Shown here in pieces: positions 11,861 through 44,471 of a stretch of 47,184 nucleotides of DNA. The translations under genes were made by a program, and so were the position numbers. The stretch comes from Sphaerochaeta halotolerans (GTDB lineage: Bacteria > Spirochaetota > Spirochaetia > Sphaerochaetales > Sphaerochaetaceae). The first letter of the stretch is position 1. Each line of letters opens with the position of its first letter. The notes under the pieces were generated by a model. It saw only the letters and a program-made list of their open reading frames with translations. It was not told the DNA's origin and did no database searches. Location: NCBI RefSeq assembly GCF_003429665.1, contig NZ_QUWK01000016.1:1-47184 (forward strand), in the 5' to 3' direction.

Positions 11861-14158
11861 TTACATTCCATCCTCATCAAATTCCACTTCTGCTTCAGCT
11901 TTCTCATGAATTTCAATCCTGGCATGGATGTCAACTTCATTGACAAACCAGTTGTTTGCACGACAAAGCTGCATGAATTCAGCAATTCGGTTCACTCCCG
12001 TGATTTCATGTAGCGTAATCACAACACCAAAATGTAATCCTTTACCTGACTTGGTTTCCAAACGTTCCTTGGTCTTGATGTTGATACCCCAATTGGGTGA
12101 CGATTCACTAAGCCGTATTCTGGGACGGTTTCGGGTCTTTTTCTCTTCGTAAATATGTTTCACAGTATCCCATTTCCGGTAATCGCGCCGTACCTCCTTT
12201 TCAAATAATCTATGGGCTTCGTCGTCTCCCTGAGCATTATCGTTAATTGCCTTGATCTTACCCTTTTTGTTCATTCTTCCCAGATGAATGTCCATTTCGG
12301 TATCGGTATAGTCAACTCCCTGAGAACGAGAACATTTTGGGAAATAACAGAGAGTGGCTTTCGCAATATAGGGAAACTGGCCTTTGCAAAGGGGAACTGG
12401 AATGGTATATGCATAGGTATCATATGCTTCCACCACCCCGTGTACTACAAAGCGTATTTCTTCATTTGGAGATGTCAAAATATCCTGTATCTTGGTTGGG
12501 ACAACTCCGAAACCTATCAGATTCCTTTTGTTGGAATCGACCTTCCAGCCTGCGGCAGAATCAAGTAGTAATGCTTTGGCAATCTCTCTAGGAAATCCCA
12601 TTACATATATAAGATATGCCAGTTTTCGGGTGATCCAAGGAGCTGCAAACGAAGTACCCAATTCCTTTACCCTTCCTCGGTTGGAGTATACGATCATGCC
12701 ATCTTGGTTGTCTCCACCAAATACGGCGACATCTGGTTTGTTGAAAAAATGTAATGCAGGTCCCTTGCGTGCATATTCCACAGGATCCCCTGCCAGGGTT
12801 ACTGCATTAACAACGACAGAGTTGACGGAATCGGCAGGAGAACCGATTCTTGGACGATCTATATGACGATTTCTATTATTTGTGCCGGCTACTACGAAAA
12901 TGATGTCATACAAGAATTGGAGCTCATCAAGGAGTGCTGCTTCAGGAGAGATGAAATTCTGGTCGGTTTCCAAAGGTGATCCGAGGGATATGTTCCACAC
13001 CTTAATATCTCTGTTCGTTTCTACGATAGAACGTATTGCATTCATCAGATATGCAGAACTGTTTCGTGCATGCTTGGCAACGCCAAAATGACGGACACGA
13101 AAACGTCCACATCCATCATCAAGATGCTCATTGAGAGTAGGTCCATCGACAAGAATGGATGAGACAGCAGTTCCGTGCGCGTAATCCTCGTCTTCAATAA
13201 GGTCAGGGGATATCATGCAGTGATACTCCACCCATGAAGAGAAATATGAGGATTGGTCGAAGAGCGTGTCGATGACGCCAATTACTGGTTCATTTGTAGG
13301 TTCAGGGATAGAAAATTCTGATGAAAGAGGTCTTGTCCCATCAAGAGAACGTGCATCAATTCTTCCAAAATCAGAGACTGTCATGGCAACAAGGTACGGG
13401 GCTTTGCCAATAATCTTATGATACTGTTCGGGAGTTACCATCCAGGTAAGATCATCCAGGATTCTGATGGTTTCTTGTTGTAATCCGAGATTCTTAAGGA
13501 TTTCTTCTCGCTTTAAACCGGTATCGTAAAGCGTAATGATCTGACTCCCTGAAATGGGAATATTTCGTTCTTCAACGTTAAAGAAATCAATGTACCAAGC
13601 ATCTTTCATAATCTGACAAAATGCAGACTTACTCAATCCATGTGCAGTTATTGCACGTTCTTTCTGGGTTTTCCAGGAAATCTCTTCCCTTGAAAGTTTT
13701 CTCTTGAGCTTTTGTTTGTTATTGTTCAGGATATCCATCTCTTCAGCAGTGATTGTGTTGTTGAATTCCTCTGCTAGTAATTGGGAAACTTCCAGAAGTT
13801 TTTCCAAACCTTGCTCGATGGCGTGAATATTCACACAATGTGTAATGATGTGTTTGGGGGGAGTGGTGTCGGTAAATTTAGCACCTACAATAGTCCTAAT
13901 GGGTGATTCCGACCCATTGGAAAGAATTTTGCCCATCCTATTGCTTTTTGCTACGATATCTTTGTAATAGATAGAGACGAGCGGTTTGAATGGACTGTGG
14001 CTTTCTCTCCAATAGCGGTGCACCGCTTCAAGAGACTGAGTCAGTCTCCTAATATCTGAGACGGTGACGCTACTTCTTGCAGGGAGCGTAGCAGGTCCTG
14101 GACGGCTCGGGTTGGGAGCGTGATTGAATGTTCCTTTTAGTTCCAGGATTTTGTTCAT
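11861..14158 (-). CDS. ietS: S8 subtilase, IetS-type antiphage protease
   Basis: A 765-residue cytoplasmic serine protease without a signal peptide. The subtilisin triad is clear: D297 in VIGVIDTLFD, H328 in DYAHGTAVSS and S503 in GTSFAAP, with an oxyanion-type asparagine near 427 (VVAGTNN). A long N-terminal region (1-285) precedes the protease, and about 200 residues follow it. The start overlaps the stop of the AAA ATPase gene by four bases (ATGA), indicating a coupled operon. An AAA ATPase plus subtilase pair is the composition of the known IetAS antiphage system. Assignment rests on domains and order, not on alignment. Confidence 0.83.
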   Translation of the reverse strand: MNKILELKGTFNHAPNPSRPGPATLPARSSVTVSDIRRLTQSLEAVHRYWRESHSPFKPLVSIYYKDIVAKSNRMGKILSNGSESPIRTIVGAKFTDTTPPKHIITHCVNIHAIEQGLEKLLEVSQLLAEEFNNTITAEEMDILNNNKQKLKRKLSREEISWKTQKERAITAHGLSKSAFCQIMKDAWYIDFFNVEERNIPISGSQIITLYDTGLKREEILKNLGLQQETIRILDDLTWMVTPEQYHKIIGKAPYLVAMTVSDFGRIDARSLDGTRPLSSEFSIPEPTNEPVIGVIDTLFDQSSYFSSWVEYHCMISPDLIEDEDYAHGTAVSSILVDGPTLNEHLDDGCGRFRVRHFGVAKHARNSSAYLMNAIRSIVETNRDIKVWNISLGSPLETDQNFISPEAALLDELQFLYDIIFVVAGTNNRNRHIDRPRIGSPADSVNSVVVNAVTLAGDPVEYARKGPALHFFNKPDVAVFGGDNQDGMIVYSNRGRVKELGTSFAAPWITRKLAYLIYVMGFPREIAKALLLDSAAGWKVDSNKRNLIGFGVVPTKIQDILTSPNEEIRFVVHGVVEAYDTYAYTIPVPLCKGQFPYIAKATLCYFPKCSRSQGVDYTDTEMDIHLGRMNKKGKIKAINDNAQGDDEAHRLFEKEVRRDYRKWDTVKHIYEEKKTRNRPRIRLSESSPNWGINIKTKERLETKSGKGLHFGVVITLHEITGVNRIAEFMQLCRANNWFVNEVDIHARIEIHEKAEAEVEFDEDGM

Positions 14159-15198
14159 TGTGTAACTCCCAGCAGTTCTCGTGATACTTGGCTCTTCGAA
14201 ACTTTTGTAAGGATTTCGATATCACGTACAGAAAATCCCATCATTTTGAGCTCTTTATAATCTCCTGCAAATCCTGGTTTTACCTGTTTAAATAATCGTG
14301 CAAGATAGTCGAAATCCTCATGGGGGTTGCTAAATGCTATGGCAGTTTTAATGAGATTCTTCAATTCACCGGGATAGGGAAGAGGGTCCATCAGTGCAAT
14401 GATTTTCCTGAACAGCCGAACATTTCTTCCTTTAAACCTGAATTGCTGTAAGAGATCCTCAAGAATAGTTTCTGCGATTTCCCTCAGGTCCTTATCTGTG
14501 TAACGAGCAAAATCAATTACTTTGTCAAATCGACGGATGAGAGCCTTGTCAAATGATTCATACAAATTTGTCGTTGCTAGTAATACGATTCGACTGCTAA
14601 GATTATCAAGTCCTTTCAACACAGCGGATGTAGCCCTGCCCATCTCTCGCAAATCACGTACACTCGTTCTATCAAGAGCAATTGAATCCAGTTCATCGAA
14701 GAGGATAATGATTTGTTCCGGATAGGGAACATTATTTATTTCAGCAAACAGCTCTGCAATATTTTTCGAAGTTTGTCCCATCTTGCTGTCTACAAGCAAA
14801 TCAAAATCTACTACAAAGAGTTGTCGGTTTAGAATTCGGGCAAGCTGCTTTGCACTTTCAGTTTTCCCGGTGCCGGGAGCCCCTTGAAATAAAAACTTAT
14901 TAACCCCTGCGCCATAGCTGACAGCATTGACAATGCCCATCAGTTCATCCTTTATGCATTCTGGGAGTGGTAGCGTAGTAGGTGGACATTCGATTTTTCT
15001 AAGATAGTCCAATTTCCCATTCAGTACTTGTGGTACAAATGTATTCTTGTCAGATAATAATGCCATGATATAGTCACCAAGTTCACTATCGTTGTTCCTA
15101 TTGAAATCAACTGCTATCGCATATGCTTCATCACGGAAAGCTCCGTCATTTCTTTCGATATAATACTTTATTAGGTTTATTACATTTTTCTTTTTCAT
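14155..15198 (-). CDS. ietA: AAA+ ATPase, IetA-type antiphage protein
   Basis: A 347-residue AAA+ ATPase with Walker A GAPGTGKT (106-113), Walker B IIILFDELD (163-171), sensor 1 ATTN (208-211) and an arginine-finger region LIRRFD (220-225). The C-terminal segment FSVRDIEILTKVSKSQVSRE resembles a helix-turn-helix. It is the first gene of the two-gene operon with the subtilase and presumably recognises infection and activates or feeds the protease. The start is supported by AGGAA upstream. The region 15199-15414 before it is AT-rich and holds no gene; the promoter must lie there. Confidence 0.83.
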   Translation of the reverse strand: MKKKNVINLIKYYIERNDGAFRDEAYAIAVDFNRNNDSELGDYIMALLSDKNTFVPQVLNGKLDYLRKIECPPTTLPLPECIKDELMGIVNAVSYGAGVNKFLFQGAPGTGKTESAKQLARILNRQLFVVDFDLLVDSKMGQTSKNIAELFAEINNVPYPEQIIILFDELDSIALDRTSVRDLREMGRATSAVLKGLDNLSSRIVLLATTNLYESFDKALIRRFDKVIDFARYTDKDLREIAETILEDLLQQFRFKGRNVRLFRKIIALMDPLPYPGELKNLIKTAIAFSNPHEDFDYLARLFKQVKPGFAGDYKELKMMGFSVRDIEILTKVSKSQVSRELLGVTQ

Positions 15199-15414: not shown

Positions 15415-15443
15415 AATGGAAGGTATCAATACCTCAGGGCAAG
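15415..15443 (-). repeat. 157-bp repeat, 29-bp tail copy (C)
   Basis: On the minus strand this matches the last 29 bases of the structured repeat (CTTGCCCTGAGGTATTGATA onwards to CATT) with one difference. It includes the AGGTAT-TG-ATACCT hairpin. It provides the stop codon of the truncated GNAT gene. Confidence 0.85.
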
Positions 15444-15719
15444 AGTTCGTGTGAGATGGAGACTTAGTTGTTTCTCTTGGGAGTCGAGGAGAATCTCCTG
15501 CTCGATTCTCTGGAGGATTGCTTCTTCGCTGTAGTATGCGTCATCACGTAGCGGCTCCCACGGAGAAAGAAACGTTCTATTCTTCAGGAGGAATGCTTGG
15601 AGTCCTTTCAATTCAGAGATGGCAACGGTTTTCAGATACAATCGTTCTGTTGAGAAGTACTTCATGAATTTCTTATAGGCTGGATTCAGGACCATGGTAA
15701 CCCAAGGTGCTACGCCCAT
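15426..15719 (-). pseudogene. GNAT acetyltransferase, truncated by repeat tail
   Basis: The frame encodes a RimJ/GNAT-type N terminus (YFSTERLYLKTVAISELKGL, then NRTFLSPWEPLRDDAYYSEE) and then stops inside the repeat tail with LALRY. The acetyl-CoA-binding half is missing. The start could be the ATG at 15719, which overlaps the hydE stop by ten bases, or the ATG at 15665 just before the family-like segment. It follows hydE in the same direction. Confidence 0.65.
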
Positions 15720-16750
15720 CCAGGGAGCAGAGAGTCACATCTTCCATAATCAATGGAGAGACCTACACGCCTTGCCAGCTGTTCCAAGCTCTTCTTATTC
15801 TCTGTTTTGGACTGTTTATTGGGATAAATGACATACTGGTTCTTGTAGCATTGAGGGGTGAAATTGGGCATGATCACATTTGCACCAGCCTGAAGGCCCT
15901 CCTTACGGTAATCTCGCTGTAAGCTTCCAAGGGCCGTTGTTGCCGGCATCCATGGATACTTGGTAACTATACGGGTCAAGGCAATGGTATTGAGGGTAAG
16001 GTTCAAATCCCCTCTCTTTGCTTTTGCCAACGGTGTTTGCGGGTGGGGAATGAACGGACCGATCCCAATCATGGCAAACTGTTTTTCAGCGAAGAACTGG
16101 ATATCGCGGGCGATTGTGGAGATCGACTGTCCTGGCAATCCTACCATTATGCCACTGCCTACCTGATAACCCAACGTTTCGAGCTGCTCAAGACACTCCA
16201 TTCTCGATGAGAGGGCACGATCTGTATGGAGGGAACGATAGAGTTCATCATCGGTGCTTTCAATACGGAGCAGGTATCGGTCGGCACCGGCTTGTTTCCA
16301 TGCTAGGTAGTCCTCCCAGGGGCGCTCTCCAAGCGAGAGCGTTACGGCAACAGGGAACTCCTGCTTTATCTGGCTGATCAACTGAGCAATTGCCTGGGAA
16401 GAACATCCATTCTCTCCCGACTGCAATACTACCGTCCTGAACCCTTGTTTGGCGGCCAATCGTACGCTTTGCATCACTTCATCATCACGCATGGTATAGC
16501 GGGAAGCTTCTCTGTTGTATCGGTTGAGACCGCAATAGCGACATGAGTTCTTGCAGACACTGGAGATCTCAACAAGTGCCCGTAAGGCAATGCGTTCCTG
16601 GCAATAGGTGTTTCTCACTATACATGCTGTTGCATGCAGGTAGCCCATTTCATCGGGATCACAAAGAGAGAGGAGGATTTTCAGGTCCTCTCTCGCAGGG
16701 AAATCCTCTCGAATGCGATCTAGTGCATCACGAATACCTGCTCGTATCAT
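15710..16750 (-). CDS. hydE: [FeFe]-hydrogenase maturase HydE (radical SAM)
   Basis: Radical SAM enzyme that helps build the diiron part of the H-cluster. The cluster motif is C66-KNS-C70-RY-C73 (CxxxCxxC). The remainder shows the expected GENG, SLGE and GLPGQ segments of the TIM barrel. At 346 residues the length is normal. Its start overlaps the hydF stop by four bases. The last gene of the regulator-hydG-hydF-hydE operon, it is followed by a truncated GNAT gene. Confidence 0.93.
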   Translation of the reverse strand: MIRAGIRDALDRIREDFPAREDLKILLSLCDPDEMGYLHATACIVRNTYCQERIALRALVEISSVCKNSCRYCGLNRYNREASRYTMRDDEVMQSVRLAAKQGFRTVVLQSGENGCSSQAIAQLISQIKQEFPVAVTLSLGERPWEDYLAWKQAGADRYLLRIESTDDELYRSLHTDRALSSRMECLEQLETLGYQVGSGIMVGLPGQSISTIARDIQFFAEKQFAMIGIGPFIPHPQTPLAKAKRGDLNLTLNTIALTRIVTKYPWMPATTALGSLQRDYRKEGLQAGANVIMPNFTPQCYKNQYVIYPNKQSKTENKKSLEQLARRVGLSIDYGRCDSLLPGWA

Positions 16751-17994
16751 GAAATTGCCTGCCTATAGGCATCTAATGCTTGTGGGAACGGTGAGAGTGT
16801 ACGCTCAGCCACCCCATGCAAAACGGAGATAGCCATCCCGTAGTTGGTGATGGGTACGTTTACCTGTCTCGCTTGTTCCATCCTCCATAACATCTCACGT
16901 CGGTTCAGGGTACATCCTCCACAGTGGATGATGAGCCGGTAGAGGGACAATGCTTCAGGGTAGTCACTTCCCGCACAGTGGATTATCTCAATGGCAGGAT
17001 CACAGTAGGTTGCGATCCATCGGGGGATTTTTACCCTGCCGATATCATCGACGGAGGGATGGTGTGAGCATGCCTCCGCAATCAAGACTGCATCCTTGGC
17101 CTTGAGAGAGGCCAGGATGCCTGCACCCTTTGCAAGCTGCACAATGTCTCCCTTGAAGCGGGAGAAGAGGATGGAGAACGTAGTACATGGAACCTCTGGC
17201 GGGGTATTCTGAACCATGAAAGCGACAATTTGGGAGTCACAGATCACCAAATCGGGTGGACATTTGAGATTTGAAAGCATATGCACATAGTTGTCCTCCT
17301 TTAGCACTATGAGTGAGGCATTGTTGTCCAGCCCATCACGGATTGCTTGCACCTGGGGGAGTATCAAGCGACCTTTTGGAGCGCCCAGATCGATGGGTAC
17401 GAGACAGACAATCAGTGGGTGTTCTTTGTCAGAGGGGAGCAGATCACCCAAAAGTGGCGGACTGTGAAGGAATTCATCAGGGCAGAGCGCAATGAGTATG
17501 CGCTTGAACCCACTCATAAACCCTTCACGATCTCCTTCCTCTGTAGAACAACAGAGAAGGTGAGGGGAAACCTCCTTGCATTGTGCAAGGAATGAGGAGG
17601 AGGGGCTTGATAGGTCGCACTTGTTGACCACCAAAAGCATGGGTATTTCATACCGCTTGCAGTGGGCAACCAGTGCATCCTCAAATTCAGTCCACACATC
17701 ACCCTCGAGTACGATTAGGGCGATATCGATGGATCCAAGCCTCTTCATAGTCCGCTTTACCCGCTCCTTTCCCAGCTGGGATAGATCATCAATACCGGCA
17801 GTATCAAGAAAAACCACAGGTCCGAGGGGGGAAAGTTCCATCCTCTTGGCAACAACATCGGTGGTTGTCCCCGGTATTGCAGAGGTGATGGCGGTATTCT
17901 GCCCTGTAATCATGTTCAGTAAACTGGACTTGCCGGTATTGGTTCTCCCACAAATACCAATACGCAACAGGAGAGAGGAAGGTGTATGTTGCAT
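16747..17994 (-). CDS. hydF: [FeFe]-hydrogenase maturase HydF (GTPase scaffold)
   Basis: GTPase and scaffold that carries the diiron precursor to the hydrogenase. G1 motif GRTNTGKSS lies near residues 16-24, G3 DTAG in VVFLDTAGIDDLS and G4 NKCD. The C-terminal iron-sulfur ligands follow the HydF pattern: CSH in EACSHHPSVDD and HCGGC in LIIHCGGCTLNRRE. All ligands appear intact. Ribosome-binding GGGAAC precedes the start; only 11 bases separate it from hydG. Confidence 0.94.
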   Translation of the reverse strand: MQHTPSSLLLRIGICGRTNTGKSSLLNMITGQNTAITSAIPGTTTDVVAKRMELSPLGPVVFLDTAGIDDLSQLGKERVKRTMKRLGSIDIALIVLEGDVWTEFEDALVAHCKRYEIPMLLVVNKCDLSSPSSSFLAQCKEVSPHLLCCSTEEGDREGFMSGFKRILIALCPDEFLHSPPLLGDLLPSDKEHPLIVCLVPIDLGAPKGRLILPQVQAIRDGLDNNASLIVLKEDNYVHMLSNLKCPPDLVICDSQIVAFMVQNTPPEVPCTTFSILFSRFKGDIVQLAKGAGILASLKAKDAVLIAEACSHHPSVDDIGRVKIPRWIATYCDPAIEIIHCAGSDYPEALSLYRLIIHCGGCTLNRREMLWRMEQARQVNVPITNYGMAISVLHGVAERTLSPFPQALDAYRQAIS

Positions 17995-18005: not shown

Positions 18006-19517
18006 TTAAAAGTAGAGGTCTCGTTCCCCGTGCTGTATCTTCTTGTAGTCAGCTAGGAACTTGGTAAAGGATGCCTGGGAGAAATCCTTTGGTACCCTCT
18101 CACGGATTTCAGCAATCTCTTGCTGGATGAGCTTCTCTCCAATCTCCTTTGTCTCTTCTGAGGCAAAGTCCTCAAGCCACTCTTGGAACGTCAGTACAGC
18201 ATTCAACTTACAGAAACATCCTTCTTTGCCACTTTTAAGCAGTCCCATGATCTTGTCCCCGGTACGGCCACAGCGGTATCCGGCAGTACAGAAGCTGGTG
18301 ATATGCCCGCTCTTGGCCAGCTTTTGGATTACTTGGTCCAGGCTGCTGGTATCATTGAGCATAAACTGCTCCCGTTCAGCTATCTGTTCCTTTCGGTAGG
18401 TGTCGGCGTAATCGCCAATACCAATTTTGCTCTCTGCATCACGCTGGGTGCACATGTCAATGACAGACTCCATGATCTGGGGCGTCTCCCGATTGGTGAT
18501 GATCATACCTGCATAAGGGATGGCAAGACGGAGTACTGCGATGAGATGGGTAAAATCTTCATCACTGACTTGGTGTTTGCTATGGTCAAAATTGGTGCCC
18601 ACCGCAGGGGTCAAGCGTGGAAAGGAGATGGTATGAGGCCCGATATTGTACAGACGCTCCAGGTCCCTTGCATGGGCTACCATGCCCATGACCTCGAATT
18701 TCCAGTCATAGAGTCCAAAGAGTGCCCCGATTGCAACATCGTCAATGCCTGCGTCCATCGCCCGGTGCAATGCATAGAGTCTCCAACGATAGTTTCCTTT
18801 CAAGGTATCGGAAGGGTGTACCTTGCTGTAGGTTTCATGGTGATAGGTCTCCTGGAACACCTGGAAGGTGCCGATACCAGCTTTCTGGAGCTTTTTCAAG
18901 TCTTGAATGGGTAGTGGTGCAGCATTGACATTCACCCTCCTGATCTCTCCCATTCCGTTTCTCACCGGGACCTTCACCTCATAGATTGTATTCATTGTCT
19001 CGGCAATGTAGTCTGCGTCGGTCTCAGGATGCTCCCCAAAGACAATAATGAGCCGCTTATGCCCAATGGTCCCGGCCAGGACGCGGGTCTCTTCCCGTAT
19101 CTCATCCATCGTCAGGACTTTCCTGATCACTGATTTGTTGTCACTTCTGAATCCGCAATAGGCACAGCGATTGACGCATTTGCTGCCACAATAGAGGGGA
19201 GCGAAGGTAACTACCCGATTGTCGTATACCTGTTTCTTGATTTCCTTTGCAGCTTCTGCTATTTCGTTTCTCAAGTCGGGGTCTGTTACCTGGAGCAGTG
19301 CAGCTACATCCTCACTGGACATAAGCTCAATGGAGAATGCCTTGGCAATAATCTCCCTGATACGGGAAGGGTCGCTGTGCCTATTCTTCTCAAGTGCTGC
19401 ATTGATTTGCTCTTCATCAATGAAGTCTTTTCCATCCACGAGGTATCGGTCGATCTCATCCTGGTGTATGAGCTGTTCTTTCCATGCTCGAATGCTTTGG
19501 GGGGTATGTGCAGACAT
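18006..19517 (-). CDS. hydG: [FeFe]-hydrogenase maturase HydG (tyrosine lyase) with unusual C-terminal cysteines
   Basis: Radical SAM enzyme that splits tyrosine to give CO and cyanide for the H-cluster. The SAM cluster motif C114-VNR-C118-AY-C121 is normal, and the protein is 503 residues, slightly long. The auxiliary cluster motif, usually CX2C followed by a distant Cys, reads C410-TAG-YR-C416 here. The second canonical cysteine is replaced by G413 and a new cysteine appears three residues later. The distal Cys at the expected position (C436) is kept and C434 lies beside it. The start follows AAAAGGAA on the minus strand. Confidence 0.93.
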   Translation of the reverse strand: MSAHTPQSIRAWKEQLIHQDEIDRYLVDGKDFIDEEQINAALEKNRHSDPSRIREIIAKAFSIELMSSEDVAALLQVTDPDLRNEIAEAAKEIKKQVYDNRVVTFAPLYCGSKCVNRCAYCGFRSDNKSVIRKVLTMDEIREETRVLAGTIGHKRLIIVFGEHPETDADYIAETMNTIYEVKVPVRNGMGEIRRVNVNAAPLPIQDLKKLQKAGIGTFQVFQETYHHETYSKVHPSDTLKGNYRWRLYALHRAMDAGIDDVAIGALFGLYDWKFEVMGMVAHARDLERLYNIGPHTISFPRLTPAVGTNFDHSKHQVSDEDFTHLIAVLRLAIPYAGMIITNRETPQIMESVIDMCTQRDAESKIGIGDYADTYRKEQIAEREQFMLNDTSSLDQVIQKLAKSGHITSFCTAGYRCGRTGDKIMGLLKSGKEGCFCKLNAVLTFQEWLEDFASEETKEIGEKLIQQEIAEIRERVPKDFSQASFTKFLADYKKIQHGERDLYF

Positions 19518-19529
19518 AGGTATTTCCTT

Positions 19530-19781
19530 TTAGAGTTTTGCAAGAGTCGATTTCACCGTAACATTCTCGATACGGCCAAGCTTTCCGGTGAGTGCCCCGA
19601 TTTGATCGGTGGAAGCATCAACGATGAGGGTGATGATGTTGAGATTTCTTTCTCGGTAGGGGAGGCCCAATCTCCCCAGTATGATGGATCCATACTGGCT
19701 GAGTACTTCATTGACTTCTTGGGCGGCTGTGTTGCGTTCTTTTACGATGATCGCAATAACACCAACTGATCGACTTTCCAT
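19530..19781 (-). CDS. TM1266-type iron-only hydrogenase system regulator
   Basis: An 83-residue ACT/ferredoxin-like fold protein with SVGVIAIIVKERNTAAQEVN, EVLSQYGSIILGRLGLPYRE and TIIVDA-like strands. Small proteins of this family sit with hydEFG in many anaerobes and are presumed to sense a ligand and regulate the system. First gene of the operon, with a strong AAGGAAGG site before its start. Separated from hydG by 12 bases. Confidence 0.88.
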   Translation of the reverse strand: MESRSVGVIAIIVKERNTAAQEVNEVLSQYGSIILGRLGLPYRERNLNIITLIVDASTDQIGALTGKLGRIENVTVKSTLAKL

Positions 19782-22888: not shown

Positions 22889-22918
22889 GTGTATTCGACA
22901 CTGGCAAAGGATATGATT

Positions 22919-24367
22919 ATGGTTTTACCAGATACCTTACTTTCTTTGATTAAACAGGGTGAAAGTCTTACTGTGGAGTTCAAAAAATCCACAACAGAAA
23001 TAACTTCAGATGTCTATGAGACTGTCTGTTCTTTTTCAAACAGAGAGGGAGGTCATATCTTTCTGGGTGTAAAGGACAGCGGTGATATTATTGGCGTAAA
23101 TAAAGACTGTGTTGATCAGATGAAAAAGAATTTTGTGACTGTAATCAACAACAGGAACAAGTTAAACCCTCCTCTCTATATCAATCCAATAGATTATGAA
23201 TTTAAAGGGAAGACAGTTATATATATACAAGTGCCTCGTTCACAAAGTGTTTGTCGTTGTCGTGGAAGAATCTTTGATAGGAATTATGATTCCGACCTAG
23301 ATATCACTGATAATGAAGGTCTTGTTTATCAGTTATATGCAAGGAAACAAGATACATATTATGTAAATAAGGTGTTTCCAATATTCTCTGTCACAGATCT
23401 ACGTCATGACTTGATAGACCGAGCACGCAATATGTCCGGTATGCGTACGCCAAAGCATCCTTGGCAATATATGACTGATCTGGAAATGCTTCGGAGTGCT
23501 GGACTTATTCTTACGGATACCTCAACAGGGAACGAAGGGATCACCCTTGCTGCAATCCTCTTATTTGGACCAGATGCCTTGATCGTGTCAGCTCTAGCCC
23601 ATCATAAGACTGATGCCATATTTCGAGTTTTCAACACAGATCGCTATGATGATAGAGATGTAATAATCACAAACCTATTTGAAAGTTATGATCGATTGAT
23701 TGCCTTTGGGCAAAAGCATTTAAATGATCTATTTGTTACCGAAGGTATGCAAAGCATTAGTGCAAGAGATAAGATACTTCGAGAGATTGTTTCCAACTCT
23801 TTAGCTCATAGGAATTATGCTAATGCCTATGTGGCAAAGTTGGTGATTGAGAAAGACCGTATTTATACCGAAAACAGCAATCGTTCACATGGATTCGGGA
23901 ATTTGGATCCTTCATCATTCGAACCTTTCCCTAAGAATCCTCCAATTTCAAAAGTATTTCGCGAAGTTGGTTTAGCTGATGAGTTGGGTTCTGGGATGCG
24001 AAATACATATAAGTATACAAAGTTATATAGTGGAGCAGAACCGATTTTTACTGAAGGAGATGTGTTCAGGATTATCGTGCCTTTACATGAGGCCGCTACC
24101 GTTGTGGTTGGTCCTACTAAAGTTCCAAAGTCTCATGATGACACTTTGGATGACACTTTGGATGACACTTTGGATGACACTTTGGAGCTAAAAATACTTT
24201 CGCTGATACAAAAGAACCCCCGAATCAATCAACGTGAGCTTTCTGATCAGCTTGCAACCTCTCTGTCTACAATTAAGCGCGTTATGACCGGCATGATACA
24301 GGCCAATGTGCTTACACGTAAAGGCGGTAAGCGCTATGGCTACTGGGAAATAGAAGCAAAAGAATAG
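22919..24367 (+). CDS. AlbA_2/HATPase-type ATP-binding regulator
   Basis: Putative DNA-binding, ATP-binding regulator. The N-terminal AlbA_2 (Schlafen-like) domain shows ESLTVEFKKSTTEIT and CSFSNREGGHIFLGVKDSGD. A HATPase_c_4-type segment reads IVSNSLAHRNYANAYVAKLV and later GLADELGSGMRN. The C terminus is a winged helix (QKNPRINQRELSDQLATSLS). A linker before it contains four DDTL repeats encoded by a 12-bp tandem repeat. Of the nearby start codons, ATG 22919 has AAAGG at proper distance. It is the second gene of the XRE-led operon. Confidence 0.82.
   Translation: MVLPDTLLSLIKQGESLTVEFKKSTTEITSDVYETVCSFSNREGGHIFLGVKDSGDIIGVNKDCVDQMKKNFVTVINNRNKLNPPLYINPIDYEFKGKTVIYIQVPRSQSVCRCRGRIFDRNYDSDLDITDNEGLVYQLYARKQDTYYVNKVFPIFSVTDLRHDLIDRARNMSGMRTPKHPWQYMTDLEMLRSAGLILTDTSTGNEGITLAAILLFGPDALIVSALAHHKTDAIFRVFNTDRYDDRDVIITNLFESYDRLIAFGQKHLNDLFVTEGMQSISARDKILREIVSNSLAHRNYANAYVAKLVIEKDRIYTENSNRSHGFGNLDPSSFEPFPKNPPISKVFREVGLADELGSGMRNTYKYTKLYSGAEPIFTEGDVFRIIVPLHEAATVVVGPTKVPKSHDDTLDDTLDDTLDDTLELKILSLIQKNPRINQRELSDQLATSLSTIKRVMTGMIQANVLTRKGGKRYGYWEIEAKE
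24137..24184 (+). repeat. Four tandem 12-bp repeats in coding sequence
   Basis: GATGACACTTTG repeated four times without a mismatch, coding DDTL each time. It links the HATPase part to the winged helix. Because the unit is a multiple of three, copy-number change would alter linker length without a frameshift. Confidence 0.97.
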
Positions 24368-24434: not shown

Positions 24435-25706
24435 TCAAGGCTTCAAACATCCAATCGGTACAACATACACGCCATCTTCTCTACGGTGAGCAAATCCTGT
24501 TCCTGTCAGAACCATGAGAAAATCTGGAATCTTCTGATTTGAAGCTGCTATTTTCTTTGCCAGCCTTAGAATATTTGTAGCCCCTTCTTCAACACGATTC
24601 TGCCCAAGTTTGATTTCAATCAATCCATATTTTCCGTTTCTGCCATGGAATACTGCATCACATTCAAGGCCCGCCGCATCGCGATAATGGAGAACATCCG
24701 CATCAAGTACCTGTGCATACACTTTGAGGTCTCTTACACAAAGGGTCTCAAAAATCAAACCAAAAGTCTGTAAGTCGTTCAATAAATCTTCCGGTCCCAT
24801 CTTCAGGGCAGCCGTTGTAATTGAAGGATCTGCCAAATATCTGGTATTCGACTGTCTAATTGCTGTAGCGGATCTGAAATTTGGATTCCAAGCCTCTGTT
24901 TCATTGGTAATGAAAAGATCCTCAAGAACTTTAAGATAGTCAGCAAGGGTGTTTTTTGAAATATCAAATACATCATTTTCTATTGCTGTATTTGGGGCAT
25001 CTGAGGTGGAAAATCTTGAATATGACTGCAAGACCTTTCTCATCTTCTGTGCAGATCTCCTATGTCCATCAACATTTCTAATGTCACTTTCACATATTTC
25101 ATCAATATACAGGTATGCCTGCTTCAAGGATAAATCCTTGCGCATTCTCAATGCTTCCGGCCAACCTCCCCGAGAGCAAAGAAAAGCGATGTCAGCTACA
25201 GTATGCTTACTTTCTCCATACACTTTTTTCACTCCCTTCCATAAAGTGTCAATCGACACTTCCCCGGTTGAATCTCCAGACTCCCATAAACTCATCGTAT
25301 GCATATGGATCCTTCCAATTCGACCAGTCCCGGAGTGTGCACGAAGCGTTTCTGCAGCCTTTGTCTGTGATGTTGAACCTGTAAGAATAAATTGTCCAAA
25401 GCCAGTACGCTTATCTACTTGATTTCTTATCGTGTCCCAAAGCAAAGGAACCTTTTGCCATTCATCTATAAGAATTGGGGTGTCTTCAGAAAAGAGTCGG
25501 TCAGGATTCTCTCGTACCAAAAACTCCGCCCTTTCTTTCTCAGAATTAACTGACAAATCAATCAGGCTTTTGGCATGCCTTTTAGCGGATGTTGTCTTCC
25601 CAGACCACTTGATACCTTCAATGAGAACGGCCCCTCTCATGTGAAGAACATCGTGCATATACAGGTCAATCAACCTAGGCAAGTACTCTTTATTGGCTAT
25701 TATCAT
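24435..25706 (-). CDS. DUF4143-type AAA ATPase (copy 2)
   Basis: A 423-residue ATPase. Walker A is GIKWSGKTTSAKRHAKS near 30-46, Walker B ILIDEWQKVP, sensor-like FILTGSTSQT. The C-terminal DUF4143 part includes LECDAVFHGRNGKYGLIEIK, a PD-(D/E)XK-like arrangement. It belongs to the subgroup with GIKWxGKT P-loops, distinct from copies 1 and 4 (GVRR/GIRR). The start ATG at 25706 has no strong ribosome-binding site. Its upstream region contains three 46-bp tandem repeats. Confidence 0.85.
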   Translation of the reverse strand: MIIANKEYLPRLIDLYMHDVLHMRGAVLIEGIKWSGKTTSAKRHAKSLIDLSVNSEKERAEFLVRENPDRLFSEDTPILIDEWQKVPLLWDTIRNQVDKRTGFGQFILTGSTSQTKAAETLRAHSGTGRIGRIHMHTMSLWESGDSTGEVSIDTLWKGVKKVYGESKHTVADIAFLCSRGGWPEALRMRKDLSLKQAYLYIDEICESDIRNVDGHRRSAQKMRKVLQSYSRFSTSDAPNTAIENDVFDISKNTLADYLKVLEDLFITNETEAWNPNFRSATAIRQSNTRYLADPSITTAALKMGPEDLLNDLQTFGLIFETLCVRDLKVYAQVLDADVLHYRDAAGLECDAVFHGRNGKYGLIEIKLGQNRVEEGATNILRLAKKIAASNQKIPDFLMVLTGTGFAHRREDGVYVVPIGCLKP

Positions 25707-26571: not shown

Positions 26572-26595
26572 TGTTAATTAGGAGTGGCAATTTCA

Positions 26596-27768
26596 ATGAA
26601 AAGAGATGCATATATCAAACGTACCCTGAGGTTGAATGAAAGACTCGCTACCAAGTCGCAATTCCTTTTAGGCCCTCGTATGACAGGAAAGACCACCTAC
26701 ATTCGCAATGAATTGCAAGACAGGGTGAGCCTTAGCTGGAACTTGCTTGACGGTAGGCTTCGGATGAGAGTACTCTCCGATCCAGGCATACTCAAGGAAG
26801 AAATTGAAGCTCGCGACTTGCATGATTGCCTCGTGGTGATCGATGAGATCCAGAAAGCGCCACTGCTGCTGGAGGAAGTGCAATTTCTCATTGAAGAGAG
26901 GAATATCCGGTTCCTGCTCATCGGTTCAAGCGCAAGGAAACTTCGTTCAGGCGGGGTCAATCTCTTGGGAGGAAGAGCCGGTCATATCACCATGCATCCT
27001 TTGGTATTCCCAGAGATACAAGACACCAACTATACTTTGGAAAGGATTTTCCAGTCAGGCTTATTGCCCTCAGCCTTCTGCTCTGAACATCCTGATGAGG
27101 AACTTAACGACTATGTTGCTTTGTACCTCAACGAGGAGATACAGGCAGAGGGAGTAACAAGGAAACTTCCCCAATTCTCACGATTCCTAGAGGTAGCCGC
27201 CCTATCAAACACACAGATGCTCAACTTTACCAATATTGCCAGCGATGTTGGTGTCTCCAGACAAGCTGTTACCGGTTGGTATCAGGTCCTTGTTGACACC
27301 CTGATCGGGTATGAACTCCCTTCCTTCACCAATGGAAAGAAAAGAAAGACCTATGGGATGCCTAAGTTCTATTTCTTTGACCTTGGAGTAGCCAGAGCGC
27401 TGCAGAATGTTCCTGTCCCCACCTCAATCCAGACAGAATATGGTGCATTTTTCGAGCATTATGTGTTCATGGAGCTACGTTCCTACCTCGATTACATCCA
27501 GAGCAAAGAAGTCCTTAGCTATTGGAGGACCACAAGCAACTTTGAGGTTGACTTTGTGCTAGGAGAGAATGTAGCAATTGAGACCAAAACCACCAAAAAG
27601 GCAGATTCCAAGGATTACCGAGGACTGAAGGCTTTCATGGAGGAAGGGATATGCGATCGATACATTCTGGTATGCTGCGAAGAGCGGCCAAGGAAGTTGG
27701 AAAATGGTATTGAAGTCATGCCTTGGAAATATTTCCTACAGCTTCTTTGGGATGGGAAGATCGTGTAG
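26596..27768 (+). CDS. DUF4143-type AAA ATPase (copy 3)
   Basis: A 390-residue ATPase. The P-loop reads LLGPRMTGKTTYI near residues 23-35, Walker B LVVIDEIQKAP, sensor-like FLLIGSSARKL. A helix-turn-helix-like segment (NIASDVGVSRQAVTGWYQVL) precedes DUF4143, followed by FEVDFVLGENVAIETKT with PD-(D/E)XK-like residues. I prefer ATG 26596 (GGAG at 26581-26584) to the GTG at 26584. It is convergent with no partner and transcribed from the palindrome-covered promoter. Confidence 0.85.
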   Translation: MKRDAYIKRTLRLNERLATKSQFLLGPRMTGKTTYIRNELQDRVSLSWNLLDGRLRMRVLSDPGILKEEIEARDLHDCLVVIDEIQKAPLLLEEVQFLIEERNIRFLLIGSSARKLRSGGVNLLGGRAGHITMHPLVFPEIQDTNYTLERIFQSGLLPSAFCSEHPDEELNDYVALYLNEEIQAEGVTRKLPQFSRFLEVAALSNTQMLNFTNIASDVGVSRQAVTGWYQVLVDTLIGYELPSFTNGKKRKTYGMPKFYFFDLGVARALQNVPVPTSIQTEYGAFFEHYVFMELRSYLDYIQSKEVLSYWRTTSNFEVDFVLGENVAIETKTTKKADSKDYRGLKAFMEEGICDRYILVCCEERPRKLENGIEVMPWKYFLQLLWDGKIV

Positions 27769-41634: not shown

Positions 41635-41681
41635 CATTAATCTATTGCTTATAGGGTTGTTAAACTCAAGTAGGAGTCATG

Positions 41682-44471
41682 ATGGAGCGTGACGTAAAAG
41701 ACCAGATGATTAGAAAACTCCAACTGGAGAATAAATCGTTACGCTCAGAAAATGAACGATTACGATCTCTGTTGCAAGCATCGCAGGCTATCTATGACAC
41801 CGAGGTTGTTGAAAGTACAGTAAAAGAAAGACAGTTAAAAAGGCTTGAACTTTATCGTGCTTACTTCCGAGGGCGTACTGATGTATATGCACAACGATGG
41901 TTCAATAAACAGGGAAAGAAACAATATAGTCCAGTAAGCCAACGTAGGTATATGAAGTGGAATGATGCTAAGCATCGATATATTGTATCAGCTCCTACAG
42001 GGATTTCTCCCTATGAGCCCCTTACTGATGAGGTGCTTGTGCGTCACTTATTCACAAAAGAAGATAACAATGGAGAAGATAATTCTTTTGGTCTGTATAT
42101 CATTGTAAACGATGATGAATGTTATTTTGCTGTGATTGATTTTGATGGTGATTCTTGGCAGAAGGATGTGATGCAATCTATTCAGGTTATTGACTTATAT
42201 GGTTTTCCGTATCTGATTGAGCGTTCACAATCTGGAAAGGGTGCTCATATCTGGTTTTTCTTTTGCAATGCTATTAAAGCAAAGAAGGCCAGACAATTCT
42301 GTAGCAGCTTGATTACGCTTTCCATGGAAAAGCAAGCTTTCCTCCCTATGCGAACATATGATCGTATTTTCCCTTCCCAAGATTGTATTACCAAGAATGG
42401 TCTTGGTAGCTTGATTGCACTACCTCTTGAAGGGGAATCACGCAAGCAAGGTAATACTATTTTTCTTGATAAGGACTTGAATCCAATTCTAAATCCATGG
42501 ATCGCCATACAGAAGACCCGAAAAATTGATGAAGAACAGATTACTTCCTTCTTGAATAACATTGGTCCAGCTTTCAACACTGGGCAGGTAGGTTTCAATG
42601 GTCCAGGAGAACTGCCGAGTCTAGAATCCCTTCCTCGATTACAAGAAAATGCATTATCTGGAACGGTAACCCTTTTATTGGAGAGTGGCATAAAAATCGA
42701 TACATTTGGATTACCTTCACCACTTGTGAATACTTTGAAGCGGATTGCGTCCTTCCATAATCCTGAGTTTTATAAAGCAGAGCGGATGCGTCTTAGCACG
42801 TGGGATAAGCCTCGTATTATCTGTTGTGCTGAACTGATAGAGAACCGATACATAAATCTCCCACGAGGATGTTTGGATGCTGTACAGCAGGCTCTCCTGC
42901 AAGCAGGGTTACGAATAGAAATTGAAGATAGAAGAGAACACGGGACCCCGATTTTATTCAATTTTTCTGCTACACTGCAAAATCCTCAACGAGAGGCATT
43001 GCAAGCAATGCTTAGGGAAGAGAGGGGTATACTTTCTGCTCCTCCAGGCTTTGGTAAAACTGTGGTTGCTTCTAATCTTATTGCAAAACACGGGTGTAAT
43101 GTGTTAGTTATCGTGCATACAAAACCATTACTCAATCAGTGGAAGGATCGTCTTTCACAGTTTCTCTCGGTTAGGCCCGGCTTGTTAGGAGGAGGCAAGA
43201 ATACCTTGACTGGGGTAGTTGATATTGCACTCGTTAATTCCCTCTCCCAAGAACAGAATATGAAGATATTAAATTCATACGGGATGGTTATTGTTGATGA
43301 GTGTCATCATGTAGCGGCAGTTACATATGAAAAAGTGCTCAAGTCTGTCAGAGCTACCTATGTTTACGGGTTAACTGCAACACCAATTAGAAATGATGGC
43401 CATCACGATATTATTTTCATGCAATGTGGTCCAATTCTTTATCAAGTAGACCAAGCGAGTTGGGCTAAGCAGAATAAGCTATCTGGTATTATTAGTGCGC
43501 GATTCTCTCCATTTAGGTGTGATTTCCAGCATCTGGAAATCCAGGAATTATATGAGCGTCTTGCACAGGATAAAGATCGTAACAGGCTTATTGCCTCAGA
43601 TATATTAACTCAATTGGGTCAAGGACGGTCCATTCTTGTTCTGTCCAACCGTTTGGAACAGCTCAAGCTATTAGGATCTTTGCTTGAAAACCAAGGGAAT
43701 TCAGTATTGGTGATGACGGGTAGTCAATCAGCAAAAACCAAGAAGCAAGTACAGTCGTATTTAGAATTAATGACAAGAAAGAAGAAGCAAGCTTTGATTC
43801 TTTCAACGGGAAAATACATCGGGGAAGGTTTTGATCTTCCTCAACTTGATACACTCGTACTTGCCTCGCCCATCGCATGGAAGGGAAATGTAATCCAATA
43901 TGTAGGTAGGTTGTGTCGTTTTTATGAAGGGAAAGTAGAAGTTGTTGTCCTTGATTATATTGATTTTAGAATTCCTGTTCTTGCCAGAATGTTTAACAAG
44001 CGAGTGAATGCTTATAAACAGTTGGGATTCTCAATTACACAATGCGGACAGAAACCTAAGACTCAATTGATATATACCGTGGACACGTATTGGGAGATGC
44101 TGCTAAAGGATATAGAGACTGCAAATGGAGAGATATTTTTCTCTATCCCTTTCCTATCAGATGAGAAGTTGCAGGCGATGATTCCACTTCTGATAAGAGT
44201 AGCTCAAAGAATCAGAATTTGTATGAGAATCATGAAATCGAGTAATGAAAAAACTATTCATCGCCTTAAGCAAATAGGAATCACTGTTCAACTGAGTGAA
44301 GTGGAAGTAGTAAATTACCTGCTGATAGATGAACGTATTCTCTGGTATGGAAGCATCCATCTATTTGGCAAGATTTATCAAGGGAATACAATGCTTCGTC
44401 TTGAAGACCCTACCTATGCAGCCGATTTCAGAGTGTATGATGAGGCTACCAAGAATCCCTCGTTGTTTTAA
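41682..44471 (+). CDS. TOTE-type primase, helicase and PLD-like fusion protein
   Basis: A 929-residue multidomain protein of the TOTE conflict-system class. After a coiled coil (residues 1-45) comes an archaeo-eukaryotic primase domain with VIDFDGDSW near 150 and IERSQSGKGAHIWFFF near 175. A superfamily 2 helicase follows, with SAPPGFGKTVVASN near 452, VIVDECHHVA near 538, LTATPIRNDG and the C-terminal lobe ending QYVGRLCRFY. The last 140 residues resemble a degenerate PLD nuclease (NYLLIDERILWYGSIHLFG) without the usual HKD histidine. AGGAG at 41672 favours ATG 41682 over 41679. A role in anti-element immunity is inferred from the family. Confidence 0.82.
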   Translation: MERDVKDQMIRKLQLENKSLRSENERLRSLLQASQAIYDTEVVESTVKERQLKRLELYRAYFRGRTDVYAQRWFNKQGKKQYSPVSQRRYMKWNDAKHRYIVSAPTGISPYEPLTDEVLVRHLFTKEDNNGEDNSFGLYIIVNDDECYFAVIDFDGDSWQKDVMQSIQVIDLYGFPYLIERSQSGKGAHIWFFFCNAIKAKKARQFCSSLITLSMEKQAFLPMRTYDRIFPSQDCITKNGLGSLIALPLEGESRKQGNTIFLDKDLNPILNPWIAIQKTRKIDEEQITSFLNNIGPAFNTGQVGFNGPGELPSLESLPRLQENALSGTVTLLLESGIKIDTFGLPSPLVNTLKRIASFHNPEFYKAERMRLSTWDKPRIICCAELIENRYINLPRGCLDAVQQALLQAGLRIEIEDRREHGTPILFNFSATLQNPQREALQAMLREERGILSAPPGFGKTVVASNLIAKHGCNVLVIVHTKPLLNQWKDRLSQFLSVRPGLLGGGKNTLTGVVDIALVNSLSQEQNMKILNSYGMVIVDECHHVAAVTYEKVLKSVRATYVYGLTATPIRNDGHHDIIFMQCGPILYQVDQASWAKQNKLSGIISARFSPFRCDFQHLEIQELYERLAQDKDRNRLIASDILTQLGQGRSILVLSNRLEQLKLLGSLLENQGNSVLVMTGSQSAKTKKQVQSYLELMTRKKKQALILSTGKYIGEGFDLPQLDTLVLASPIAWKGNVIQYVGRLCRFYEGKVEVVVLDYIDFRIPVLARMFNKRVNAYKQLGFSITQCGQKPKTQLIYTVDTYWEMLLKDIETANGEIFFSIPFLSDEKLQAMIPLLIRVAQRIRICMRIMKSSNEKTIHRLKQIGITVQLSEVEVVNYLLIDERILWYGSIHLFGKIYQGNTMLRLEDPTYAADFRVYDEATKNPSLF

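Follow-up and report, generated by a model that had tools for sequence, protein, structure and literature searches.

A branch of HydG proteins with a displaced auxiliary-cluster cysteine and an aspartate in the predicted tyrosine pocket

HydG produces the CO and cyanide that [FeFe]-hydrogenase carries. In the window, the whole stretch of 47,184 nucleotides of Sphaerochaeta halotolerans DNA that was analysed, HydG is encoded at 18006..19517 on the minus strand, and in this protein the second cysteine of the auxiliary cluster has moved by three residues, from position 413 to position 416. Alignment of homologues indicates that the protein belongs to a clade, here called the D360 clade, whose marker is the pocket residues and not the cluster motif. 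The first-pass annotation had pointed to the cysteines; the change that by sequence marks the clade, that of the tyrosine pocket at N342, M349 and D360, was absent from it. The branch is widespread, extends over many phyla and is apparently uncharacterised. It is reasonably probable, judging from sequence comparison, that the window protein is a working HydG, holds its auxiliary cluster on C410, C416 and C436, and retains tyrosine in a pocket rebuilt with an aspartate, all together.

The hyd gene row and the retained HydG features

The hydG frame is translated into 503 aa without internal stops. Its assignment to HydG in the first-pass annotation holds, as the NCBIfam HydG model TIGR03955 scores the protein at 435.8 bits against a curated cut-off of 312.15 and the fold match agrees. 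The gene stands in a row, all on the minus strand, in the order TM1266-type regulator, hydG, hydF and hydE; the first two junctions are spaced by 12 and 11 bases, and at the last the genes overlap by 4. The putative regulator of the TM1266 family (19530..19781, 83 aa), upstream of hydG, was recognised by family match, while hydF (16747..17994, 415 aa, with CxH(45 residues)HCxxC) and hydE (15710..16750, 346 aa, with CX3CX2C intact) were recognised by family match and codons. The genome, 99.99% complete, contains one HydG and one HydF above cut-off and 5 matches to PF02906 ([FeFe]-hydrogenase). The nearest named homologues of the window HydG, at 88-89% identity, belong to Sphaerochaeta and other spirochaete MAGs.

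Several other genes of the window were observed. A short frame at 15426-15719 (minus strand) overlaps the end of hydE and is similar to the first part of a ribosomal-protein N-acetyltransferase, at 26.6 bits far below the cut-off of 190; it is perhaps a remnant. Downstream of the hyd genes and on the same strand, 11861-15198 holds an IetAS-like anti-phage pair, in which a subtilase (best PADLOC match IetS, 211.9 bits) overlaps an AAA ATPase (IetA, 121 bits); the IetA-like ATPase scores 106.4 bits, far below the NCBI model cut-off of 510. Furthermore, the window encodes a protein of 930 aa that has primase and helicase domains of the TOTE conflict-system type (41679-44471, plus strand), a Schlafen/AlbA_2 domain protein that also has a winged helix and carries a series of DDTL repeats in its C-terminal part (22889-24367, plus strand), and two like DUF4143 / AAA_14 ATPases, close by on opposite strands (24435-25706, minus, and 26584-27768, plus).

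The radical-SAM motif CX3CX2C of the window HydG is intact, the codons at 19155..19178 (minus strand) giving C114-VNR-C118-AY-C121. Together with C410, C436, R343 and E344, the residues H295, F105 and F221 are present in 37/37 clade rows of the first tree described below. H295 aligns with the His of GPHTIS, a column that holds His in 37/37 clade rows, 24/24 canonical rows and 0/8 ThiH rows and that presumably corresponds to the dangler-iron His, His265 of Thermoanaerobacter italicus HydG. At the positions of F105 and F221, Phe is found in 37/37 clade and 24/24 canonical rows, and Tyr in 7/8 ThiH rows each. PMC9046217 describes F81/F192 of T. italicus HydG as the Phe pair at the gate of the dehydroglycine channel, and by alignment F105 and F221 probably represent this pair.

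An AF2 model of the window HydG, for which an alignment of 46 sequences including 45 of the 80 loci introduced below was used, has a mean pLDDT of 91.3. Its residues 25..503 match 4wcx with Z 53.5 and rmsd 1.3 over 452 residues, indicating the HydG fold including the C-terminal domain. The HydGs of T. italicus (4wcx) and Carboxydothermus hydrogenoformans (4rtb) thus share this fold, with Z 53.5 and 42.6, and they also share the radical-SAM motif, the aligned putative dangler-iron His and the equivalents of C410 and C436; however, they have Cys413, no Cys416, and Thr, Arg and Ser in the places of 342, 349 and 360, where the window protein has Gly413, Cys416, Asn, Met and Asp. ThiH of Thermosinus carboxydivorans (7pd1) shares the barrel fold with Z 41.8; it has one [4Fe-4S] cluster, according to PMC9046217. 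The barrel fold is also shared, with Z 37.1 to 37.6, by the tryptophan lyase NosL (6htk, 4r33), which cleaves the Calpha-C bond of tryptophan (PMC9046217). With the NosL-type family model TIGR04158 the window protein scores 83.1 bits, far below the cut-off of 400.

Substrate pocket and phylogeny of the D360 clade

In tyrosine-bound ThiH, T299, S318, S321 and the main-chain N of T299 hold the phenolate with R306 beneath it, R300 contacts the substrate amino group, and T299, S318, S321 and R306 are termed strictly conserved in HydG (PMC9046217). Alignment sets TcThiH T299, S318, S321, R306 and R300 against N342, D360, S363, M349 and R343 of the window protein, which therefore keeps one of the four phenolate residues, S363 (= S321), and departs from the canonical pocket at the other three. 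D360 (codon GAT, 18438..18440, minus strand) stands at S318, a part of the phenolate crown, and N342 (codon AAT, 18492..18494, minus strand) stands at T299, adjoining R343, the equivalent of the substrate-amino Arg R300. In the AF2 model the pLDDT after D360 is fair, 74 and 69 for residues 361-380.

These positions divide a set of 209 distinct HydGs completely: 96 rows have T342, S360 and C413, and 113 have D360 and never T342, residue 342 being A, N, C or V. Rows with identical cores were left out of the set, as were the repeat loci L165-L189 and alignments ending before residue 480 (L029, L114, L163 and L164 among them); most of the canonical rows belong to the phylum of the window or to those of Caldanaerobacter and Odoribacter. 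All 110 rows without C413 carry D360, and C413 is present in 3 of the 113 D360 rows.

Trees were thinned to 61 and 63 HydG rows, each with 8 ThiH rows. In the first tree, from which the motif columns had been removed, the rows without C413 all fell in one clade of 37 rows with support 100/99, nested inside the canonical HydGs. Asp360 is found in 37/37 clade rows, as against Ser360 in 24/24 canonical and 8/8 ThiH rows, and residue 342 is Ala, Asn or Cys in 37/37 clade rows, as against Thr in 24/24 canonical and 8/8 ThiH rows. Nearby, Thr341 occurs in 37/37 clade rows and Ser341 in 22/24 canonical ones, and residue 365 is Ile, Val or Leu in 37/37 clade rows and Thr in 23/24 canonical ones. In the second tree (71 rows, columns 339-366 and 408-418 removed), D360 required one change, defining a clade again supported 100/99, with 3 changes for C413 and 7 for the state of the third cysteine. 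Taken together, the trees and the 209 rows place the loss of C413, in these rows, only in a D360 background. The pocket change would be older than the loss of C413 provided that this cysteine was retained, not regained, in the three D360 rows that have it, two histories that the tree change counts cannot separate. The Glu equivalent to TcThiH position 128, a compensating residue according to PMC9046217, was also considered as a clade marker; it proved weak because position 159 holds Glu in only 11/24 canonical rows.

Retention of tyrosine as the substrate is likely on the sequence evidence. L-tyrosine would still be cleaved to dehydroglycine and p-cresol, and D360 would provide an aspartate-phenol hydrogen bond that replaces the phenolate in its anion crown. 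With D360 taking the phenol hydrogen bond, tyrosine would most likely bind neutral and lose its proton to the Asp during cleavage. An aspartate beside the phenolate site is electrostatically awkward, and the clade could use another substrate, such as L-tryptophan, whose indole NH would sit on D360. Calpha-Cbeta cleavage would then yield dehydroglycine and another aromatic by-product, with CO and cyanide made as usual. Such a change of substrate is an unlikely alternative. It is favoured by the pairing of Thr and Ser in the T299 and S318 columns, found in 96/96 canonical HydGs and 8/8 ThiH rows, while T342 with S360 is found in 0/113 clade rows; NosL, too, has Thr in the T299 column (TTRE).

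Arg at R306 and a one-residue insertion are the likely primary markers of tyrosine versus tryptophan according to PMC9046217, and the window protein has M349 in place of this Arg. The distance between the equivalents of R300 and S318 is 18 in 96/96 canonical rows; it is 17, 18 and 19 in 30, 78 and 5 clade rows, respectively, and 17 in the window protein. Arg or Lys at 349 is absent from 27 of the 30 spacing-17 clade rows, all 27 of which have Arg359, adjoining D360. NosL resembles the window protein in having no Arg at the R306 position and a polar residue 17 past its Arg, Ser in NosL and Asp in the window, and differs from it in having Thr where the window has Asn. However, in the HMMER alignment the Ser of NosL falls one column past D360, and for this reason it was no longer taken to prove a common S318 position; sequence alone does not fix where the residue is missing. 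From the pocket alignment, neither the T299 nor the S318 position of the clade matches ThiH or canonical HydG, and at least the first of the two also differs from NosL.

Other observations argue against a new substrate. Position 349, Arg in 96/96 canonical rows, keeps Arg in 76 and has Lys in 8 more of the 113 clade rows, with other residues in 29, and a spacing of 18 is the most frequent in the clade. R343 and the putative channel Phe pair are retained. Moreover, a neutral phenol can just as well donate a hydrogen bond to Asp, as happens in tyrosyl-tRNA synthetase.

The auxiliary-cluster motif

The first part of the motif reads C410-T-A-G413-Y-R-C416 (18270..18290, minus strand), with CX5C replacing CX2C. 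The minus-strand codons bear out exactly the reading given in the first-pass annotation: C410 is TGT (18288-18290), G413 is GGA (18279-18281) and C416 is TGT (18270-18272), followed by C434 (TGT, 18216-18218) and the distal cysteine C436 (TGT, 18210..18212). The whole motif is CX5CX19C, differing from the canonical HydG auxiliary-cluster motif CX2CX22C, whose pattern is visible in the 4wcx alignment. The corresponding stretches of the two structure-solved HydGs are CTACYRMGRTG (4wcx) and CTACYRKRRTG (4rtb), with Cys at 413 and Met or Lys at 416, and their distal Cys aligns with C436. As to whether the variant is common among characterised HydGs, which the first-pass annotation had raised, the alignment covered, of the enzymes studied so far (those of Shewanella and Clostridium acetobutylicum are further examples), the two with solved structures, and both are canonical.

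Homologues were compared in 81 rows, namely the window protein and the best 80 of 473 relatives. C410, C416 and C436 are present in 81/81 of these rows, in line with the conservation of C436 proposed in the first-pass annotation, and Gly413 is likewise found in 81/81, 3 of which read CTSG. This agreement at the three cysteines and Gly413 shows that the variant motif is not a product of chance or error. C434, to which the first-pass annotation had also drawn attention, is indeed present in the window protein, but Cys occurs at this position in just 25/81 rows; it is thus unlikely to be a cluster ligand and was rejected as the replacement.

In long open frames, further states of positions 413/416 were observed: D/C, D/L, G/A and G/I. 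The 110 rows without C413 among the 209 distinct HydGs comprise 96 G/C, 6 D/C, 5 G/A, 1 G/I and 2 D/L. C416 is present in 102/110 rows without C413 and in 0/96 canonical rows, which points to its being a replacement. In the window protein a shift of the ligand to C416 is quite likely on this comparative evidence. C410, C416 and C436 would then bind the auxiliary [4Fe-4S] cluster, C416 lying roughly one helical turn past the lost C413. A changed ligand set may, as the first-pass annotation proposed, matter for H-cluster assembly. In fact, AF2 predicts a helix at 412-417 that holds both positions, and with the motif at the start of this predicted helix C416 would lie about one turn after G413; the block 411-420 has a mean pLDDT of 64, the lowest apart from residues 1-10.

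Neither cysteine is found in 8/110 rows, and a search for a replacement Cys common to these eight rows found none. The HydGs that lack C413 as well as C416 include the loci L235-L239 and L252-L254, L239 being the one in genome G314. Since these 8 of the 113 clade rows share no other Cys, C416 may not be an essential ligand, and two cysteines, C410 and C436, could suffice for the auxiliary cluster, its third ligand being exogenous or a residue other than Cys and C416 being frequent but dispensable. In the genomes G427, G460, G332 and G472, such a HydG is the sole HydG above cut-off and is accompanied by 3 to 6 PF02906 matches and a HydF, which would fit a two-cysteine cluster. A general two-cysteine cluster is nevertheless rather improbable, given the near-constant presence of C416 in rows without C413 and its presence in all 81 nearest rows (window and best 80 of 473).

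Distribution, function and meaning of the clade

The first-pass annotation had asked, with an alignment across spirochaetes and Firmicutes in view, whether CX5C is a clade feature. It belongs to a clade of many phyla, and restriction to either group was rejected, as the 80 loci (best of 473) span many phyla; their record titles include Omnitrophota, Phycisphaerae, Bacteroidota, Fibrobacter, Thermotogae, a Thermodesulfobacterium and an Archaeoglobaceae MAG. In the phylum of the window, 247 genomes were surveyed, of which 82 were above the HydG cut-off and 81 had a readable motif; C413 is absent in 17/81, own genome counted. C413 is also absent in 16/127 genomes with a motif match in the phylum of Caldanaerobacter (249 searched), in 2/16 in that of Odoribacter (247 searched) and in 3/15 in that of a deltaproteobacterial MAG (148 searched). 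In these last three surveys the motif states were read by eye from codons, and in the Caldanaerobacter phylum 8 genomes had an extra match plainly in another protein, which was not counted. Each phylum count includes its centre genome, picked for carrying the variant, and the genome samples, one per species, are uneven and contain several drafts. A 35-base motif pattern, checked in the 25 genomes of 25 of the 80 named loci, gave exactly one match per genome, always the variant.

The window HydG, a member of this second clade and the only HydG found in its genome, would provide [FeFe]-hydrogenase with its Fe(CO)(CN)-bearing unit. A single HydG above cut-off was found in 24/25 clade genomes, several of them drafts. 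The exception, G314, has two HydGs, one a clade copy (L239) and the other a canonical copy adjoining hydF. A canonical second HydG that does the work was therefore not found in the window's own genome or in 24/25 clade genomes, drafts included. [FeFe]-hydrogenase matches occur in 26/26 clade genomes and a HydF above cut-off in 28/28. HydE, HydF or a TM1266 relative lies near 86 of the 102 clade genes that have at least 3.5 kb of DNA, and none near the other 16. Caldanaerobacter subterraneus DSM 13054 (L023, G248), the strain of this species whose hydG was compared here, has the variant HydG only. For C. subterraneus subsp. tengcongensis, PMC4694547 reports production of an [FeFe]-hydrogenase active with NADH; in the same study an attempt to express its maturase homologues in E. 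coli failed, so that they activated nothing there. In the literature searched, mostly without subscription papers, no experiment on any D360-clade member was found, nor any report of a HydG with an altered motif or pocket. These genomic associations suggest that clade HydGs mature hydrogenase in vivo.

That the protein no longer forms CO and cyanide, being either a neofunctionalised lyase or the product of a degenerate gene, is very improbable. Both the substrate pocket and the cluster motif are altered, and in G314 the clade copy is an extra one beside a canonical copy; on the other hand, the window gene lies beside hydF and hydE with no other HydG above cut-off in its genome, C410, C436, H295 and the putative channel Phe pair are constant in the 37 clade rows of the first tree, and every one of the 26 clade genomes has hydrogenase matches. 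A sequencing or assembly error as the source of the variant motif is refuted by the agreement of all 81 rows (best 80 of 473 and the window) at C410, C416 and C436.

The favoured reading is thus of a HydG that works with tyrosine and a relocated cysteine. A more speculative and unlikely reading makes the D360 clade a second type of HydG without phenolate binding and maybe without L-tyrosine; it would then make CO and cyanide from another amino acid, on a cluster whose third cysteine has moved and in some members is absent. The HydGs with solved structures are both canonical, and a sizeable branch of many phyla breaks the assumption of CX2C as well as that of strictly conserved tyrosine-binding residues (PMC9046217). 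With the cluster cysteine and the residues that grip tyrosine both replaced, textbook assumptions on HydG may not hold for this branch. In conclusion, the clade members offer natural experiments that bear on two questions: which ligands the cluster requires, and whether HydG needs tyrosine as the phenolate, or tyrosine at all.
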